Origin: an uncultured Synechococcaceae cyanobacterium
GTDB lineage: Bacteria > Cyanobacteriota > Cyanobacteriia > PCC-6307 > Cyanobiaceae
Reading direction: 5' to 3'
DNA length: 55,631 nt
Assembly: GCA_902574955.1 (NCBI GenBank)
Contig: CACGPQ010000005.1
Span: 1 to 55,631, forward strand
The notes beneath the pieces were generated by a model, which was given only the letters and a program-made list of their open reading frames with translations, did not search any database and was not told the origin of the DNA. Positions 38,643 through 44,711 of this stretch are shown one piece after another. Numbering within the stretch: position 1 is the stretch's first letter; every line of letters starts with the position of its first letter. The position numbers and the translations under genes were made by a program.

Positions 38643-39488
38643 TTGGATATTAACTCATTTAATCGTGTCGGCGCGAATATCAGAAAAGCTGGATTTTTAA
38701 TTGTACTTCTTTATCTTCTTGTCGTTTTAATAATGAAATTTTTAGAGGCCAATAATTTTTTTGGCTATTCATTTTCAATGTTAAGCAATGATATATTTGC
38801 CCCTCCTTCTCTTAATCATTTTTGTGGCACAGACAGATTAGGAAGAGATGTTTGCTTAAGAACTTTGCAAGGATCATCATTAGCGATAGAAGTTGTATTC
38901 TTAGCTATTCTTTTTTCATTAAGTTTGGGTTTGCCATTGGGATTATTAAGTGGATATTTTGGTGGTTTCTTTGATAAATGCTTATCACTAATAATGGATA
39001 CTATTTTTTCAATACCTGTAATTTTGCTTTCAGTTGTTGTGGCTTTTGTATTGGGTAAGGGTATTCTTAACGCGGCTTTGGCATTGTGTATCGTTTACTC
39101 TCCTCAATATTTTAGATTAATTAGAAATCAGACAATATTGGTTAAATCCGAAACTTATGTGGAGGCAGCTCAAGTTGCAGGAGCTGATGTTAAAAAAATT
39201 ATTTTTAAATATATTCTCCCAAATGTAATAACACCATTACCTATTCTGCTTACCCTAAATGCTGCAGATGCTGTTTTGGTATTAGGAAGTTTAGGATTTT
39301 TAGGCCTTGGCGTTCCTGCAGATGTCCCAGAGTGGGGAAGTGATTTAAATCTGGCTCTTGCCGCTTTACCTACAGGTATCTGGTGGACGGCTTTGTTCCC
39401 AGGTTTGGCAATGTTTTTTTTAGTTTTAGGTCTTTCTTTTATAGGAGAGGACCTTGAAGAAATTTTTGATAGTCAAAATTCTGAATAA
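38643..39488 (+). CDS. DppC/OppC-type ABC transporter permease
   Basis: The 281-residue inner-membrane protein has the DppC layout: one N-terminal span, a periplasmic loop with PPSLNHFCGTDRLGRDVCLR, then five spans and the EAA coupling motif EAAQVAGADVKKIIFKYILP. The partner DppB-like permease, ATPases and binding protein are not in this window, so the substrate (peptide, nickel or other) is unknown. It starts at TTG 38643. Its stop is two bases from the convergent trmH stop. Confidence 0.88.
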   Translation: MDINSFNRVGANIRKAGFLIVLLYLLVVLIMKFLEANNFFGYSFSMLSNDIFAPPSLNHFCGTDRLGRDVCLRTLQGSSLAIEVVFLAILFSLSLGLPLGLLSGYFGGFFDKCLSLIMDTIFSIPVILLSVVVAFVLGKGILNAALALCIVYSPQYFRLIRNQTILVKSETYVEAAQVAGADVKKIIFKYILPNVITPLPILLTLNAADAVLVLGSLGFLGLGVPADVPEWGSDLNLALAALPTGIWWTALFPGLAMFFLVLGLSFIGEDLEEIFDSQNSE

Positions 39489-39490
39489 AT

Positions 39491-40162
39491 TTAGTTATCT
39501 GTAATAGGATCAAGTTCTCCTTGATCATTCAACTTTGGATATTCTTTAGCTGATTTTTTATACACCGCAGCTAATTCTGGGTAACACCATTCAAAAAGTG
39601 TTTTTTGATATTCATCCATATTTAATCCTTCTCCATTAGCGGGCAATATACCTTTATTTTTTCTTTGGCGAACAGCTTCAAATAATAATATAGAAGCAGC
39701 AACTGAAACATTCAGAGATTGAACCATACCTCTCATAGGTATAAAAATTGATTGATCAACCATTGATATAAGTTCATTACTTAGTCCCCATTTTTCTGCT
39801 CCTAAAACAAAACATGTATTTTGTGAATAATCAAAATTTCTATAATCTACTGATTCACTATTAAGAGTCGTTCCATATAATTTAAAACCTTTATTCTTTA
39901 AATCAGATATTGCCTTGATAGTGTTTTCATGATTATTCAGTTTTACCCATTTTTGACTTCCTTGTGCAGTACTATTAAAAGTCTTAACGACATTCGATTT
40001 GCTAATAAAATTTGCTTCGAAAACTCCTGCTGCATCACATGTCCTTAATATCGCAGATAAATTATGTGGTTTATTGACATCCTCAACTAAAACAGTCAAG
40101 TTTTTCATTCTGCAATCTAAAACACTTTTGATTCGTTCAAATCTTCTTGGCAAAATTGACAT
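39491..40162 (-). CDS. trmH: tRNA (guanosine-2'-O)-methyltransferase TrmH (SpoU family)
   Basis: TrmH methylates the ribose of G18 in the tRNA D-loop. The 223 residues of this SPOUT enzyme hold VLEDVNKPHNLSAILRTCDA (written here as VLVEDVNKPHN), the knot strands CFVLGAEKWGLSNELI and SIFIPMRGMVQSLNVSVAAS, and a C-terminal tail. N-terminal RRFERIKSVLDCRMKNLTVL fits TrmH rather than RlmB. Convergent with the permease. It is divergent from the 67-residue gene at 40260. Confidence 0.9.
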   Translation of the reverse strand: MSILPRRFERIKSVLDCRMKNLTVLVEDVNKPHNLSAILRTCDAAGVFEANFISKSNVVKTFNSTAQGSQKWVKLNNHENTIKAISDLKNKGFKLYGTTLNSESVDYRNFDYSQNTCFVLGAEKWGLSNELISMVDQSIFIPMRGMVQSLNVSVAASILLFEAVRQRKNKGILPANGEGLNMDEYQKTLFEWCYPELAAVYKKSAKEYPKLNDQGELDPITDN

Positions 40163-40259
40163 TTATAATTTTTTTCACACTTTTAAATTATATTCAAAAA
40201 ATATTGATTACCTATTAAATCTCTTGGTTTATAATATTTTGGTAGTTTAAATTAACTCA

Positions 40260-40463
40260 ATGGCATACATAGAATGGGACTATACAGTAATAACAAGTAT
40301 GGTAGAAAAACAAGGGTGGGATTTACCTGATCGTGAATCGGAAGAATGGAATAAATTTAACGATGAATTAGGAGAAAAAATGAGAGGTGTTGGACTTATT
40401 TTTGAAAAATATTGTAAATTTACTCCTGACGTAGGAGAAGGAGTTCATCTTCTAGATGATTGA
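40260..40463 (+). CDS. 67-residue hypothetical protein
   Basis: Soluble acidic protein MAYIEWDYTVITSMVEKQGW, continuing LPDRESEEWNKFNDELGEKM and a FEKYCKFTPDVGEGVHLLDD end. Tryptophan- and Glu-rich helices. No signal or span. The family is unrecognised; similar short proteins are widespread in picocyanobacteria. It precedes the photolyase-associated cluster by 180 bases, with a hairpin between, so it is probably a separate transcript. Confidence 0.65.
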   Translation: MAYIEWDYTVITSMVEKQGWDLPDRESEEWNKFNDELGEKMRGVGLIFEKYCKFTPDVGEGVHLLDD

Positions 40464-40481
40464 TCATAAATAGTTTTTAAA

Positions 40482-40507
40482 CCATTGATGTATCCCTTTA
40501 TCAATGG
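40482..40507 (+). terminator. Possible terminator hairpin
   Basis: CCATTGAT at 40482-40489 pairs perfectly with ATCAATGG at 40500-40507, loop of ten bases. It lies 19 bases past the stop of the 67-residue gene. The following bases (CTTATTAATAAA) lack a T-run, so termination is uncertain. Confidence 0.35.
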
Positions 40508-40641
40508 CTTATTAATAAATAAGATAATATAATTTCATTAAATTAGAACTGGCAATTATTAAGGCTTTATAAAGCTTATACTCTAAAAAAAAATTTTTAG
40601 TCCACAAAAAAGTTATTTAATTTCTATATTTGAATAAAAAT

Positions 40642-41034
40642 ATGAAAAAAAAATTAACCTTTTTATTCGATGGTGGTTGTCCACTTTGTTTGAGAGAAAC
40701 AAATTTTCTTAAAAAAAGAGATACCTTAAATCAAATTGCATTTATAGATATTAATAGTAAGGATTATGATCAATTTCTTTTTAATGACATCTCATATTCA
40801 GAAGCTATGTCAAACCTGCATGGGATTATTGACAATGGTGAAATTATTAGGGGACTAGATGTACTTGCATATTCTTATGAATTAGTTGGTTTAGGTTGGG
40901 TTTATTATCCCTTGAAGATTAAACTATTATCTCCCTTATTGAGATTGGTTTACAGATATTGGGCAAAATATAGACTTCAAATTACAGGTAGATCCGATAT
41001 TGAAAAACTTTGTACCTCACAATGTGAACAATAA
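40642..41034 (+). CDS. DUF393 (DCC family) thiol-disulfide protein
   Basis: The product of about 130 residues starts MKKKLTFLFDGGCPLCLRET, with the family's D-G-x-C-P-x-C motif near residue 9-15. The family is a predicted thioredoxin-like oxidoreductase. The rest includes IAFIDINSKDYDQF, HGIIDNGEIIRGLDVLAYSY and a basic C-terminal half. A TTG at 40630 is also open, but the ATG at 40642 fits the family better. The following DUF2805 gene starts two bases after its stop, so it heads a four-gene run ending in the photolyase-like gene. Confidence 0.88.
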   Translation: MKKKLTFLFDGGCPLCLRETNFLKKRDTLNQIAFIDINSKDYDQFLFNDISYSEAMSNLHGIIDNGEIIRGLDVLAYSYELVGLGWVYYPLKIKLLSPLLRLVYRYWAKYRLQITGRSDIEKLCTSQCEQ

Positions 41035-41036
41035 AT

Positions 41037-41273
41037 ATGGAAAGTATCGATATAGATAGAATAATAGAAATGTGTTGGGAAGATAGAACACCCTTTGAAG
41101 CTATCGAGTATCAATTTGGTTTAAGAGAGGAAGATGCGATAAAAATTATGCGTCAAAATCTTAAACCCAAATCTTTCAAAGTCTGGAGAAAGAGAGTTTC
41201 GGGAAGAAATACAAAACATATGGCCCTTAAAGATTCAACTAGATTTAAATCTACTCATAAAAGAAAATTATAA
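41037..41273 (+). CDS. DUF2805 / TIGR03643 family protein
   Basis: The 78-residue product has IDIDRIIEMCWEDRTPFEAI and EYQFGLREEDAIKIMRQNLK, then SFKVWRKRVSGRNTKHMAL and a basic tail with KSTHKRKL. This matches TIGR03643, a small family that I recall being found near photolyase-like genes. The helix-turn-helix-like middle and basic tail suggest nucleic acid binding, but that is inference. It lies two bases after DUF393 and three before DUF2256. Confidence 0.88.
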   Translation: MESIDIDRIIEMCWEDRTPFEAIEYQFGLREEDAIKIMRQNLKPKSFKVWRKRVSGRNTKHMALKDSTRFKSTHKRKL

Positions 41274-41276
41274 ATT

Positions 41277-41408
41277 TTGAAAAATCTTTCTACTAAAACT
41301 TGTCCTGTTTGCAATAGGCCGTTTGAGTGGCGTAAAAAATGGAAAAACTGTTGGGATGATGTTATCTACTGTTCAAAAAGATGCAGTAACAGGAAGTCGC
41401 AAAGATGA
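41277..41408 (+). CDS. DUF2256 zinc-ribbon-like small protein
   Basis: TTG at 41277 opens 43 codons to TGA 41406-41408: [20 protein letters not shown] then [20 protein letters not shown]. The four main cysteines (C-x2-C and C-x3-C) and FEWRKKW are the DUF2256 signature, a presumed zinc ribbon. The stop overlaps the photolyase-like start (ATGA), so the two are co-translated. No ATG is available in frame. Confidence 0.85.
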
Positions 41409-42895
41409 AACAAGTATCAATTATTTTCCCGAATCAACTTTTTAGAGAAAGCCCAATCTTAAAAATAAATTGTGAAGTTTTGATTTTGGAAGACTCATTA
41501 TTTTTTGGAAATGATAAATTTCACAAATTAATTAACCATAAAAATAAGTTAGTTTTTCATAGAGCATCTATGCTCGCTTATAAATATTATTTAGAAATAT
41601 CTGGCTTTAAAGTTTTATATATCGAAAACAAGAATAATGTTTCTACAGTTGATTACTTATCGGAATTTATTAAAAATAAATATCAGAAAATAAATCTCAT
41701 TGACCCTCATGATTTTTTAATAATGAAGAGGATTAATAATTTTGTTGAAAGTAATAATTTAGCTTTAAATATCTTGCCTTCTCCTATGTTTATGAGTAGT
41801 GAAGATTTAAAAGATTTATTCGCATCAAATGCAAAAAAACCTCTTATGGGGAGATTTTATGAGAACCAAAGAAAGAGCCAAAAGATATTAGTTAATCCTG
41901 ATGATACACCTGAAGGTGGTAAATGGAGTTTCGATGAAATGAACAGAAAAAAAATACCAAAAAAAATAAATATACCCGATAAACCTAAATTGCAAAAAAA
42001 TAAATTTGTAGTTAATGCAGAAAGGTCATTAGCCAATTTTGATATTGAGTTTATTGGAGAAAGTAATAATTTTTTATATCCAACTAATTTTGAAGAGGCA
42101 GATGAATGGTTAAATGATTTTTTTAAACATAGATTTTTCTTATTTGGAGATTATGAGGATGCTATTTCTAAAGAAAATTCTTTTTTATGGCATAGTTTAC
42201 TTTCTCCTCTTTTAAATAGCGGCTTATTAACCCCAGATGTAGTAGTAAATAAAGCGTTACTCTTTGCAAAAAATAATAATGTTCCTATTAACTCTTTAGA
42301 GGGTTTTATTCGTCAAATTATTGGATGGAGAGAATTTATTTGCCTCGTCTATAAAAAGTACGGAACAAAGATGCGAAATAGTAATTTTTGGAATTTTGAA
42401 GATAAGCCAATTCCAAAATCTTTTTATCAAGGAAATACAGGAATTGAACCAGTAGATGTTGTTATAAAAAATATTATTAAATTTGGTTATTGTCATCATA
42501 TTGAGCGGCTAATGATTGTTGGCAACTTTATGCTTCTATGTAGAATTCACCCCAACCAAGTTTACAAATGGTTTATGGAAATGTTTATTGATTCCTATGA
42601 TTGGGTTATGGTCCCAAATGTTTACGGAATGAGTCAGTTTAGTGATGGTGGTATCTTTTCAACAAAGCCATATATATCAAGCTCTAATTATGTAAAAAAA
42701 ATGTCTAATTTTAAAAGTGGCCCATGGTGTGAAATATGGGATGGCTTATTTTGGAAATTTATTAAAGATAATGAAAGCTTTTTTAGAAAGCAATATCGTC
42801 TGGCAATGTTAACGAGAAATCTCGATAAAATGTCAGAGGAAAAATTAAATAATCACTTAAAAACGGCCGATAAATTTTTAAAAGATATTCAATGA
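41405..42895 (+). CDS. Photolyase/cryptochrome-related protein of the bacterial (6-4) type, without Fe-S ligands
   Basis: The 496-residue protein belongs to the deoxyribodipyrimidine-photolyase-related group that includes Agrobacterium PhrB. The N-terminal antenna domain begins SIIFPNQLF and [10 protein letters not shown]. The FAD/DNA domain shows [20 protein letters not shown], the twin-His [17 protein letters not shown] near 362-378, [20 protein letters not shown] and [20 protein letters not shown]. In PhrB four cysteines hold a 4Fe-4S cluster: one just before the twin His, three after SNYVKKM-like. Here those places read GIEPVDVV and [19 protein letters not shown], with at most one Cys, so the cluster is probably gone. 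It likely repairs UV lesions or senses light. Confidence 0.88.
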
Positions 42896-43000
42896 ATTAA
42901 GAGTAATAACCTACAGTTGTTTTTGAAAAATTAAAAGAATATTATGTTATGAAGAAATATTAAGTACGGATGTTAACTTACAAAAAATTAGATTTATCTA

Positions 43001-43180
43001 ATGGAAATTGGAACACTTTATTTAAAAAGTAATTCGACGGGAATTATCACATTTTCTGAATTAGATTGGATAACTACTCATCAATCTAATTTCACTAGGT
43101 TGGAGGAATCTATAGCAATTAAATTAGGCAGAATGCTTGATGCAGGATCTATCAATATTGGTTGCCGTTTGAAATCCTGA
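43001..43180 (+). CDS. 59-residue hypothetical protein
   Basis: ATG at 43001 opens 59 codons to TGA 43178-43180: MEIGTLYLKSNSTGIITFSE, then LDWITTHQSNFTRLEESIAI and KLGRMLDAGSINIGCRLKS. Strand-rich front and a helix in the middle suggest a small folded domain. The family is unrecognised, but the balanced composition makes it a likely real gene. It lies 105 bases after the photolyase-like gene and 19 before another small gene. Confidence 0.65.
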   Translation: MEIGTLYLKSNSTGIITFSELDWITTHQSNFTRLEESIAIKLGRMLDAGSINIGCRLKS

Positions 43181-43199
43181 ATAAGTTTTTATTTTAATA

Positions 43200-43343
43200 A
43201 TGAAGTATCAAAAAGAGAAAAAAATATTTTTTCGGGAAAGAATTCATTCTTTTAATATCTTTCTTTTTTTAGGATTTAATCTTTCACTTATTTCTATCTT
43301 AGGTTTTATTTGGTTTAATTCTGCAATTGAAAAAGTAGTTTAA
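43200..43343 (+). CDS. 47-residue membrane peptide
   Basis: ATG at 43200 opens 47 codons to TAA 43341-43343: a basic front MKYQKEKKIFFRERIHSFNI, then one long hydrophobic span FLFLGFNLSLISILGFIWFN and a short SAIEKVV end. The positive-inside rule places the N-terminus in the cytoplasm. No family is recognised. It precedes rsmB by 51 bases and may share its transcript. Confidence 0.5.
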   Translation: MKYQKEKKIFFRERIHSFNIFLFLGFNLSLISILGFIWFNSAIEKVV

Positions 43344-43394
43344 ATTTTCAAATTTTTTGTATATTAAAGTTATCTTTAAAAAATTAATTATATT

Positions 43395-44711
43395 TTGAGC
43401 ATAGGATATTTACAAAGAAAGGCAGCTTGGGAAATTTTATTAAAAGTTAGTTCTGGTGATTTTTCTGATCATGCTCTTGAAAAGGTTTTAAAAAATTATC
43501 AATTTAATCCTCTTGATATAGCTTTTATTACGGAATTATCTTTTGGATGTATAAGGTATAGAAAATTTCTTGATCTTTGGACGGATCATACATCAAAAAT
43601 TAATCATAAAAAGCAGCCTCCAAAGTTAAGATGGCTTCTACATATAGGTTTGTATCAACTATTAAAAATGGATAAAATCCCATTTCCTGCTGCTATTTCT
43701 ACCACTGTAGAAGTAGCTAAAAAAACAGATTTAAATGGTTTAGCGGGAACTGTAAATGCGATATTGAGAAATGCATCAAGAAAATTAGAACAAAAAATCT
43801 TTCCGGAATTAACTTCTGATAGAAAAGAAAGAATTTCATATCTTGAATCATTTCCATTATGGCTTGTGAAGGATCTTTATAAATGGGTCGGCAATAGCGA
43901 GGGTGAAAATATCATTAAGGCATTTAATAAAAAACCATCAATTGATTTGAGAATTAACCAATTAAAAACTAATTTAGATAACTTTTTGAAAGTACTTCAT
44001 GAAAATAAAATTGATGCTGAAATTATTAATGATTTACATAATGGAATTACTTTAAAATCTAATCCAAGATCTATAATAAATTTACCAGGATATAGTGATG
44101 GACTTTGGACAATTCAAGATAGATCCTCTCAGTGGATAGCACCTCTTTTAAATCCAAAAGAAGGTGAAAAGATTTTGGATGCTTGTGCAGCTCCAGGAAG
44201 TAAGTCTACCCACCTTGCAGAATTAACAAATGATAGTGCTGAAATCATTGCCGTAGATAGATCAGCAAAAAGATTGAAAATACTACAATCAAATTTAGAA
44301 AGGTTAAATTTAAAATCTGTTAATACCCTTAAGGCTGATGCTACGAGTTTGATTGAATTAAATCCTAAGTTTATATCTTATTTTGATAAGATTTTATTAG
44401 ATGCTCCATGTTCAGGCATTGGAACTCTCTCTAGGAATCCAGATTCTAGATGGTCTTTAAGTAAAGAAAAAATAAAATCTTTGACTTTAATACAGGAAAA
44501 ACTTTTGGAGAGTATTTTCCCTCTTTTGAAAAAAGATGGCACTTTAGTCTATTCAACTTGTACTATTTGTCCCGATGAAAATAATCTATTAATAGAACGA
44601 TTTATTGAAAAAAACAAAACTTTAAAATTGGTAAGCCAAAAGCAAATTTTACCTAGCTTGGATTATCCTGGTGATGGATTTTATTCTGCAATAATTTCTT
44701 ATAAATCTTAA
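43395..44711 (+). CDS. rsmB: 16S rRNA m5C967 methyltransferase RsmB (Sun)
   Basis: RsmB methylates C967 of 16S rRNA. The 438 residues have an N-terminal NusB-like domain (RKAAWEILLKVSSGDFSDHA, FGCIRYRKFLDLW) and a C-terminal methyltransferase with ILDACAAPGSKSTHLAELTN, LLDAPCSGIGTLSRNPDSRW (general Cys near 338) and VYSTCTICPDENNLLIERFI (nucleophilic Cys near 388). It starts at TTG 43395, where the family's N-terminus fits. Its 3' end is nine bases from the convergent PBP gene. Confidence 0.94.
   Translation: MSIGYLQRKAAWEILLKVSSGDFSDHALEKVLKNYQFNPLDIAFITELSFGCIRYRKFLDLWTDHTSKINHKKQPPKLRWLLHIGLYQLLKMDKIPFPAAISTTVEVAKKTDLNGLAGTVNAILRNASRKLEQKIFPELTSDRKERISYLESFPLWLVKDLYKWVGNSEGENIIKAFNKKPSIDLRINQLKTNLDNFLKVLHENKIDAEIINDLHNGITLKSNPRSIINLPGYSDGLWTIQDRSSQWIAPLLNPKEGEKILDACAAPGSKSTHLAELTNDSAEIIAVDRSAKRLKILQSNLERLNLKSVNTLKADATSLIELNPKFISYFDKILLDAPCSGIGTLSRNPDSRWSLSKEKIKSLTLIQEKLLESIFPLLKKDGTLVYSTCTICPDENNLLIERFIEKNKTLKLVSQKQILPSLDYPGDGFYSAIISYKS

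Follow-up and report, generated by a model that had tools for sequence, protein, structure and literature searches.

The window analysed here, a 55,631-nucleotide stretch from an uncultured Synechococcaceae cyanobacterium, carries a photolyase of the PhrB branch that has none of the four cysteines of the family's Fe–S cluster and whose gene overlaps that of a small protein of the DUF2256 family. The enzyme itself is already known; the new part is its partner. DUF2256 was found in 165 of 491 genomes (194 from the cyanobacterial phylum, 148 from Bacteroidota and 149 from Pseudomonadota; whole-genome family counts, matches at E 0.001) and 164 of the 165 also have a photolyase match, the exception (G290) being a DUF2256 match of 22 residues. 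We propose that the window encodes an Fe–S-free PhrB-branch photolyase together with a zinc-binding accessory adaptor, DUF2256, and a looser partner, DUF2805, an explanation to which, taken whole, we give an even chance. The accessible parts of the open literature that we searched contained no report tying DUF2256 or DUF2805 to photolyases.

The four-gene unit and its photolyase

Four genes lie on the + strand in the order DUF393–DUF2805–DUF2256–photolyase, with gaps of 2 nt and 3 nt and then a 4-nt overlap, so that the tight packing described in the earlier note is plain in the DNA and its open reading frames. The first gene (40642..41034, with an alternative TTG start at 40630) encodes a DUF393 or DCC1-like thiol-disulfide oxidoreductase (PF04134, 85.5 bits). 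It is followed at 41037..41273 by the gene for a 78 amino acid DUF2805 protein (PF10985, 110.4 bits; TIGR03643, 122.8 bits) with predicted HTH-like helices and a basic tail. The range 41277–42895 holds DUF2256 (41277..41408; 43 amino acids from a TTG start; PF10013, 66.1 bits against a cut-off of 25) and the 496 amino acid photolyase (41405..42895), the stop of the one and the start of the other sharing an ATGA at 41405..41408. Ahead of the unit, a pattern scan gave a weak terminator-like stem–loop at 40482..40507 on the + strand (2 found against 1.2 expected from shuffles), between the unit and a preceding 67 amino acid ORF (40260–40463) that has no Pfam or NCBIfam match. An Rfam scan of 39400–43500 returned no match.

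This layout is conserved. In a set of 36 Prochlorococcus-type loci (L021–L025 and L061–L091, the window's being L021), DUF2256 is present in 35, the exception being L089. Among the 34 loci on the + strand, the step from DUF2256 to the photolyase is −4 in 30 (the others being −28, −28, +2 and +365), and the gap between DUF2805 and DUF2256 is 3 nt in 33; L023, on the − strand, stands outside this count and has an identical layout. All four genes have dN/dS values of 0.04–0.26 against five Prochlorococcus relatives (0.12–0.19 for DUF393 alone), the ratios for L088 and L091 being rough since dS exceeds 0.8. In L085, DUF393 and the photolyase are both split and DUF2805 and DUF2256 are whole; a broken or fragmentary photolyase gene is also seen at G179:C1:925749-926394, and a 48-position PF04244 piece at G048:C496:13758-13904 adjoins a whole DUF2805. 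All three may reflect sequencing error. A second Prochlorococcus-type form (L095, L026) has the order DUF2805–DUF2256–photolyase followed by a 371 amino acid photolyase-like gene, with a peroxiredoxin-like ORF, identified by eye, lying between the two photolyase genes in L095. One whole four-gene unit of the Prochlorococcus kind is filed under a Rhodobacteraceae MAG (L061, JABSSB010000278.1), its photolyase being 99% identical to the window's; binning contamination is likely. The window's own genome, which is 60% complete, has one other FAD_binding_7 match among the matches listed, on a separate contig (G000:C16).

By profile and by modelled fold, the gene at 41405..42895 is that of an Fe–S-free PhrB-type photolyase, annotated here as a prokaryotic (6-4)-type enzyme of the PromaPL/Phr2 kind. 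PF04244 (146.2 bits) and PF03441 (FAD_binding_7; 32.5 bits) are found in one chain, exceeding their cut-offs of 22.1 and 27, and a phmmer search of solved structures returned eight PhrB-family sequences at E ≤ 1.5e-58 and, after these, only a class III photolyase at 1.8e-5. The AlphaFold2 model, built from an alignment of 40 Fe–S-free sequences, reached a pLDDT of 90 and a pTM of 0.91, with residues 401–406 below 50. The 11 PDB chains most similar to it are without exception PhrB-family photolyases or cryptochromes (TM 0.87–0.90, 27–29% identity), and the next rows lie at 0.52–0.60. None of the four cluster ligands is kept, either in phmmer alignments with Fe–S (6-4) photolyases or in an alignment of 40 photolyases of the cyanobacterial phylum that includes the window's. 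GIEPVDVV aligns opposite the first cysteine site (TDMxC), the CxxC...CP loop is 10 residues shorter ([12 protein letters not shown]), and the sole nearby cysteine (PWC) is Q, T, D, E or another residue in relatives. The earlier note had read this protein as a PhrB-like photolyase without its Fe–S ligands and had suggested alignment with Fe–S photolyases and structural modelling: the motifs that it quoted are present, the modelled fold agrees, and the alignments gave no four-cysteine set.

The 194 PF04244-type ORFs of the fetched loci (near-duplicates counted) divide into 82 with the full set of four cysteines and 112 without any; there are no partial sets. In the five window-genus genomes searched, PF04244 gave one match per genome in every case. 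Viral contigs, searched for phage carriage of the gene, yielded a single distant relative (35% identity). The photolyases of L027 and L028 (and, judged by length, L102) are short of ~27 residues between the two domains. A locus filed under a Microbacteriaceae MAG (L104, CAKZKU010000207.1), perhaps misbinned, encodes an Fe–S-free photolyase that is 50% identical to the window's and shares its loop with L100 and other Verrucomicrobiota rows.

A tree of 132 of the 194 ORFs, 66 with and 66 without the cluster and with the cysteine columns removed, has a single change of Fe–S state (SH-aLRT 100), a number as low being reached in 0 of 500 shuffles; the direction of the change is not given by the tree. 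L141, L089, L085, L217 and near-duplicates were left off, and the tree program flagged long branches (L029, L032) and rows of odd composition. The window photolyase groups with other Fe–S-free members, on a side that spans five phyla: cyanobacteria, Bacteroidota, Verrucomicrobiota, one Acidobacteriota and one Leptospiraceae MAG, as filed. A starred clade (100/99) holds five Prochlorococcus-type sequences; around it is an unresolved, unstarred group of 20 rows (94/88), in which Verrucomicrobiota and the marine-Synechococcus-type L027 are also found. Three further members of the cyanobacterial phylum (L031, L033, L034) make up a separate starred group.

DUF2256 and the other partners across genomes

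In two phyla, Bacteroidota and Pseudomonadota, DUF2256 goes together with the PhrB family. In Bacteroidota, where 50 genomes have DUF2256 (one below the cut-off and one partial match included), 49 have PF04244, 93 FAD_binding_7 (84 over the cut-off) and 43 DUF2805, DUF2256 and PF04244 occur together in 46 genomes, DUF2256 alone in 4, PF04244 alone in 3 and neither in 95 (p 8e-30); limited to photolyase-bearing genomes, the same four counts are 46, 3, 3 and 42. The corresponding Pseudomonadota counts are 25, 1, 4 and 119, and 25, 1, 4 and 36 among photolyase-bearing genomes, G194 having been left out because this MAG carries a Prochlorococcus contig. Put another way, 46 of 49 PF04244 carriers have DUF2256 in Bacteroidota, against 4 of 99 other genomes, and 25 of 29 in Pseudomonadota, against 1 of 120. 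These statistics treat genomes as independent and ignore kinship. They uphold the co-occurrence of DUF2256 with the photolyase family that the earlier note had proposed looking for, without the special tie to Fe–S-free members that it had in mind: in Bacteroidota DUF2256 is present in 16 of 17 genomes with an Fe–S-free PF04244 protein and in 30 of 32 with an Fe–S-bearing one, and among 15 genomes chosen for an Fe–S-free or related enzyme it is present in 11, the other four having an Fe–S-free photolyase and no DUF2256 (L092, L093 and L111, all Verrucomicrobiota, and L138; MAGs may be incomplete).

In the cyanobacterial phylum, family overlaps were compared by eye and then entered for counting. 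DUF2256 is present in 89 of the 194 genomes, FAD_binding_7 in 96, PF04244 in 58 and DUF2805 in 38. Every one of the 89 DUF2256 genomes has FAD_binding_7 and DUF2256 is absent from all 98 genomes that have no PF03441, with seven FAD_binding_7 genomes having no DUF2256; PF04244 occurs without DUF2256 in 3 of 58 genomes and DUF2256 without PF04244 in 34 of 89. Three genomes of the window's family (G114, G141, G165), in which neither PF03441 nor PF04244 gave a match, are likewise without DUF2256 and DUF2805. Among 14 named control genomes, DUF2256 is found in Caulobacter and Synechococcus elongatus alone, both PF04244 carriers; controls without it include Haloferax, which has PF04244, and E. coli, Corynebacterium, Sulfolobus and Methanosarcina, which have FAD_binding_7 matches (one of the seven such control matches is below the cut-off).

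On the chromosome, a listed photolyase domain is found no more than 2 kb from DUF2256 in at least 36 of 50 cases in Bacteroidota and in 16 of 26 in Pseudomonadota, the latter figure resting on 23 FAD_binding_7 matches picked as relevant to DUF2256 contigs; about a third of the DUF2256 genes in these two phyla are not near a listed photolyase. Gene order varies: DUF2256 is directly 5′ of an Fe–S-free enzyme with 4-nt overlaps in Bacteroidota L114, L118, L119, L123, L124, L134 and others, 5′ of a DASH cryptochrome in L120 (a position 5′ of a DASH-type or other photolyase being among the orders seen), 3′ of an Fe–S enzyme in Pseudomonadota L157, L159 and L164, and between two photolyases in L158 and L163. 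The differing orders point to repeated linkage of the two genes. Among the non-cyanobacterial loci, DUF2256 is present in 18 of 47, with 0 of 14 for the Verrucomicrobiota loci. Of 40 photolyase loci from the cyanobacterial phylum, taken with as much as about 4 kb of flank, six have DUF2256 nearby, all six in the window's family, and no photolyase was found within about 1.5 kb in any of eight cyanobacterial DUF2256 loci read by eye; in two further genomes, G032 and G038, DUF2256 and a FAD_binding_7 match are at most 1.3 kb apart, among the matches listed. DUF2256 and DUF2805 genes lie far from the photolyase in G139 and G189. Long open frames fetched as candidates for a natural DUF2256–photolyase fusion (L150–L154, read by eye) contained none. 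Some photolyase islands in Bacteroidota and one in Pseudomonadota (L118, L119, L120, L158, L205) hold flavin-reductase-like, short-chain-dehydrogenase-like or peroxidase-like ORFs, again by eye.

The tie of DUF2805 is looser. In Bacteroidota it is associated with PF04244 (37 genomes with both, 6 with DUF2805 alone, 12 with PF04244 alone and 93 with neither), and at least 16 of 47 DUF2805 matches lie within 2 kb of a photolyase, several beside a photolyase-like gene of about 370 amino acids. In the cyanobacterial class the same counts are 25, 13, 28 and 23 (p 0.38, not significant). Co-occurrence of the two small partners with the photolyase, as the earlier note expected it, thus holds for DUF2256 and, more weakly, for DUF2805, which associates in Bacteroidota and not significantly in the cyanobacterial class. 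DUF2805 adjoins Fe–S photolyases in L036, L037 and L038, all of the cyanobacterial phylum, and where no photolyase adjoins, its neighbours vary. DUF393 was considered as a general partner and set aside as weak: of 20 further cyanobacterial DUF2805 loci, one (L239, which is the L020 place again) has DUF393 as a neighbour of DUF2805 with no photolyase there, and of 20 Bacteroidota DUF2805 loci none does. In L165 DUF393 is directly 3′ of an Fe–S photolyase.

Possible roles of the small proteins

DUF2256 proteins resemble small zinc fingers. Four cysteines (C9, C12, C32 and C36 in the window protein) are invariant in 50 DUF2256 sequences, which are basic and have conserved W, R and K residues, and we infer zinc binding from this pattern and from the family's listing in the TRASH clan (see below). 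A profile search of the PDB with DUF2256 gave nothing below E 0.074. The family is described, in the accessible text of one survey, as frequent among very small bacterial proteins (PMC11796252). The AlphaFold2 model of DUF2805 (pLDDT 80) has helices at residues 3–15, 20–27, 31–41, 44–54 and 60–63 in an HTH-like order. Its structural matches are weak, the best at a Z of about 4 and below significance, and include LsrR, SorC, IstA, a resolvase, sigma region 4 and unrelated helical proteins; Foldseek returned no match at E ≤ 0.001 and a PDB profile search nothing usable.

We take the window enzyme to work by the established photochemistry of its family, in which blue light drives an electron from reduced FAD to the lesion beside the twin His and no cluster is needed. 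That the DUF2256 gene overlaps the photolyase start suggests a joint action of the two proteins, through docking of DUF2256 to DNA or to the enzyme itself. Made just upstream, with overlapping stop and start, DUF2256 would be an accessory to many PhrB-family photolyases, with or without Fe–S, most likely as a small DNA- or protein-docking adaptor that helps, for example, in reaching lesions or in turnover on cellular DNA, and would take no part in catalysis or cluster chemistry. DUF2805 would probably be an HTH DNA-binding protein of the same light-damage module. Translational coupling, contact between DUF2256 and the photolyase, and the adaptor and DUF2805 roles are what we infer from these observations, as is the helper or regulator role that the earlier note had suggested for both small proteins. 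Such help would not be absolute, as Phr2 is active alone in E. coli and DUF2256 is absent from three Verrucomicrobiota. In its general form, the proposal is that a zinc finger of 40–60 residues, DUF2256, is an accessory protein dedicated to bacterial light-driven DNA repair and so far overlooked, used for full activity of PhrB-family photolyases on cellular DNA in Bacteroidota, Pseudomonadota and picocyanobacteria, and perhaps of other photolyases in other cyanobacteria, genomes tending to gain or lose both together. We rate this general form as less likely than not.

The main rival is that DUF2256, and DUF2805 with it, control transcription, either of the photolyase unit or more widely of a light-stress regulon, and are not repair partners. 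DUF2805 is small and basic with a modelled HTH-like layout, its weak structural matches are mostly DNA-binding domains, and DUF2256 is often unlinked yet in the same genome, as a regulator could be. However, those matches are below significance and include unrelated proteins, and DUF2256 overlaps the photolyase start in Prochlorococcus and many Bacteroidota and follows the enzyme family closely; we consider a purely regulatory role rather unlikely. The association might also arise from nothing more than common ancestry and life in the same light-exposed habitat, with the small genes functionally unrelated. The sampled genomes are indeed not independent, DUF2256 is found in 85 of 89 genomes of the cyanobacterial class, mostly unlinked, and, in the accessible text of PMC3597751, DUF2805 correlates with translation-linked domains in marine metagenomes. 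Against this, DUF2256 still separates PF04244 carriers from other photolyase-bearing genomes in two phyla, and it lies close to a photolyase in most Bacteroidota and Pseudomonadota cases and in several gene orders, which makes coincidence of this kind improbable.

That DUF2256 partners both branches of the family and is encoded just before the enzyme in many genomes would also suit a cofactor or maturation chaperone, acting on FAD or the antenna. This is very unlikely, however, as E. coli has no DUF2256: SePhrB obtained from it held FAD and its Fe–S cluster (PMC9178010, accessible text), and Phr2 acted in it (PMC9426592, likewise). Least credible of all is that the cluster was lost under iron poverty in the open ocean, with the zinc finger possibly making up for it; this last part is our own extension of the idea. 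Prochlorococcus lives in iron-poor water, and the abstract of Ma et al. 2019 reportedly includes the same argument. The earlier note had likewise thought that loss of iron would suit such an ocean, but the tree speaks against this as the origin of the state: with one change, and an Fe–S-free side that takes in four non-cyanobacterial phyla, a marine iron adaptation born in Prochlorococcus is not likely. DUF2256 is equally frequent with Fe–S enzymes, which rules it out as a substitute for the cluster. Iron poverty may help to keep the Fe–S-free state; as a simple reason for the branch, it is weakened.

To return to DUF2256 as an accessory of the photolyase, photolyases are usually studied as one-protein machines. 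If a small partner follows one photolyase family in several phyla, a component would be missing from the in vitro studies made of PhrB-type enzymes; DUF2256 gains a testable role, and attention is drawn to an unstudied helper in UV repair.

Comparison with known systems

The absence of the cluster from the Prochlorococcus-type enzyme is already published (PromaPL, Phr2, subgroup M), and the suspicion in the earlier note that Fe–S-free relatives had been reported from Prochlorococcus was well founded (PMC9426592, PMC9178010; both from accessible text, as is what follows from them). Phr2 is identified with Prochlorococcus PromaPL and has no cluster; a phr2 mutant of Synechococcus RS9916 survived UV-B about 1,000 times less well than controls, and E. 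coli expressing the RS9916 protein survived UV-B nearly 10-fold better in the light (PMC9426592). PMC9178010, which cites Ma et al. 2019, assigns PromaPL to ‘subgroup M’; this comprises 20 of the 110 sequences there, and none of the 20 has the four cysteines. From PromaPL's place in it we take the Fe–S-free side of our tree to correspond to that subgroup. Both papers name PromaPL a (6-4) photolyase; the mBio authors predicted CPD repair for Phr2 from the missing cluster (PMC9426592). For the window photolyase, descent and modelled fold lead us to favour the (6-4) lesion. The window enzyme is like PromaPL and Phr2 in family, genus and absence of the four cysteines, and no difference was found on these points. 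The neighbours DUF2256, DUF2805 and DUF393 go unmentioned in the accessible portions of both papers.

The FeS-BCP or CryPro enzymes used for comparison were Agrobacterium PhrB (4dja), Rhodobacter CryB (3zxs), the Caulobacter (9hnk) and Vibrio (7ykn) enzymes and Synechococcus elongatus SePhrB (8ijy). The window protein shares with them the near-full-length fold, the twin His and the KPY motif, but has no cluster ligands and the 10-residue-shorter loop; it reads HHIERLM where nearly all the Fe–S members aligned have HHIQRLM. At residue 402 it has Met, in contrast to Glu in the Caulobacter enzyme, and Met is also found at this site in many Fe–S members outside subgroups A, B and G (PMC9178010, accessible text).

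For the small protein, the nearest named relative is DUF329, which we take to be YacG, a small zinc protein that inhibits gyrase. DUF2256 has been placed beside DUF329 in the TRASH clan, and shared membership of that Pfam clan is what likens the two (PMC4047054, accessible text). Such membership would make DUF2256 a zinc-binding treble clef. As a gene arrangement, the phr cluster of Photobacterium profundum 3TCK is comparable: it too joins a photolyase to a small upstream gene, and when moved as a unit it confers light-dependent UV resistance. It differs in having an ECF sigma factor and in that its small upstream hypothetical gene was dispensable (PMC4019646, accessible text).
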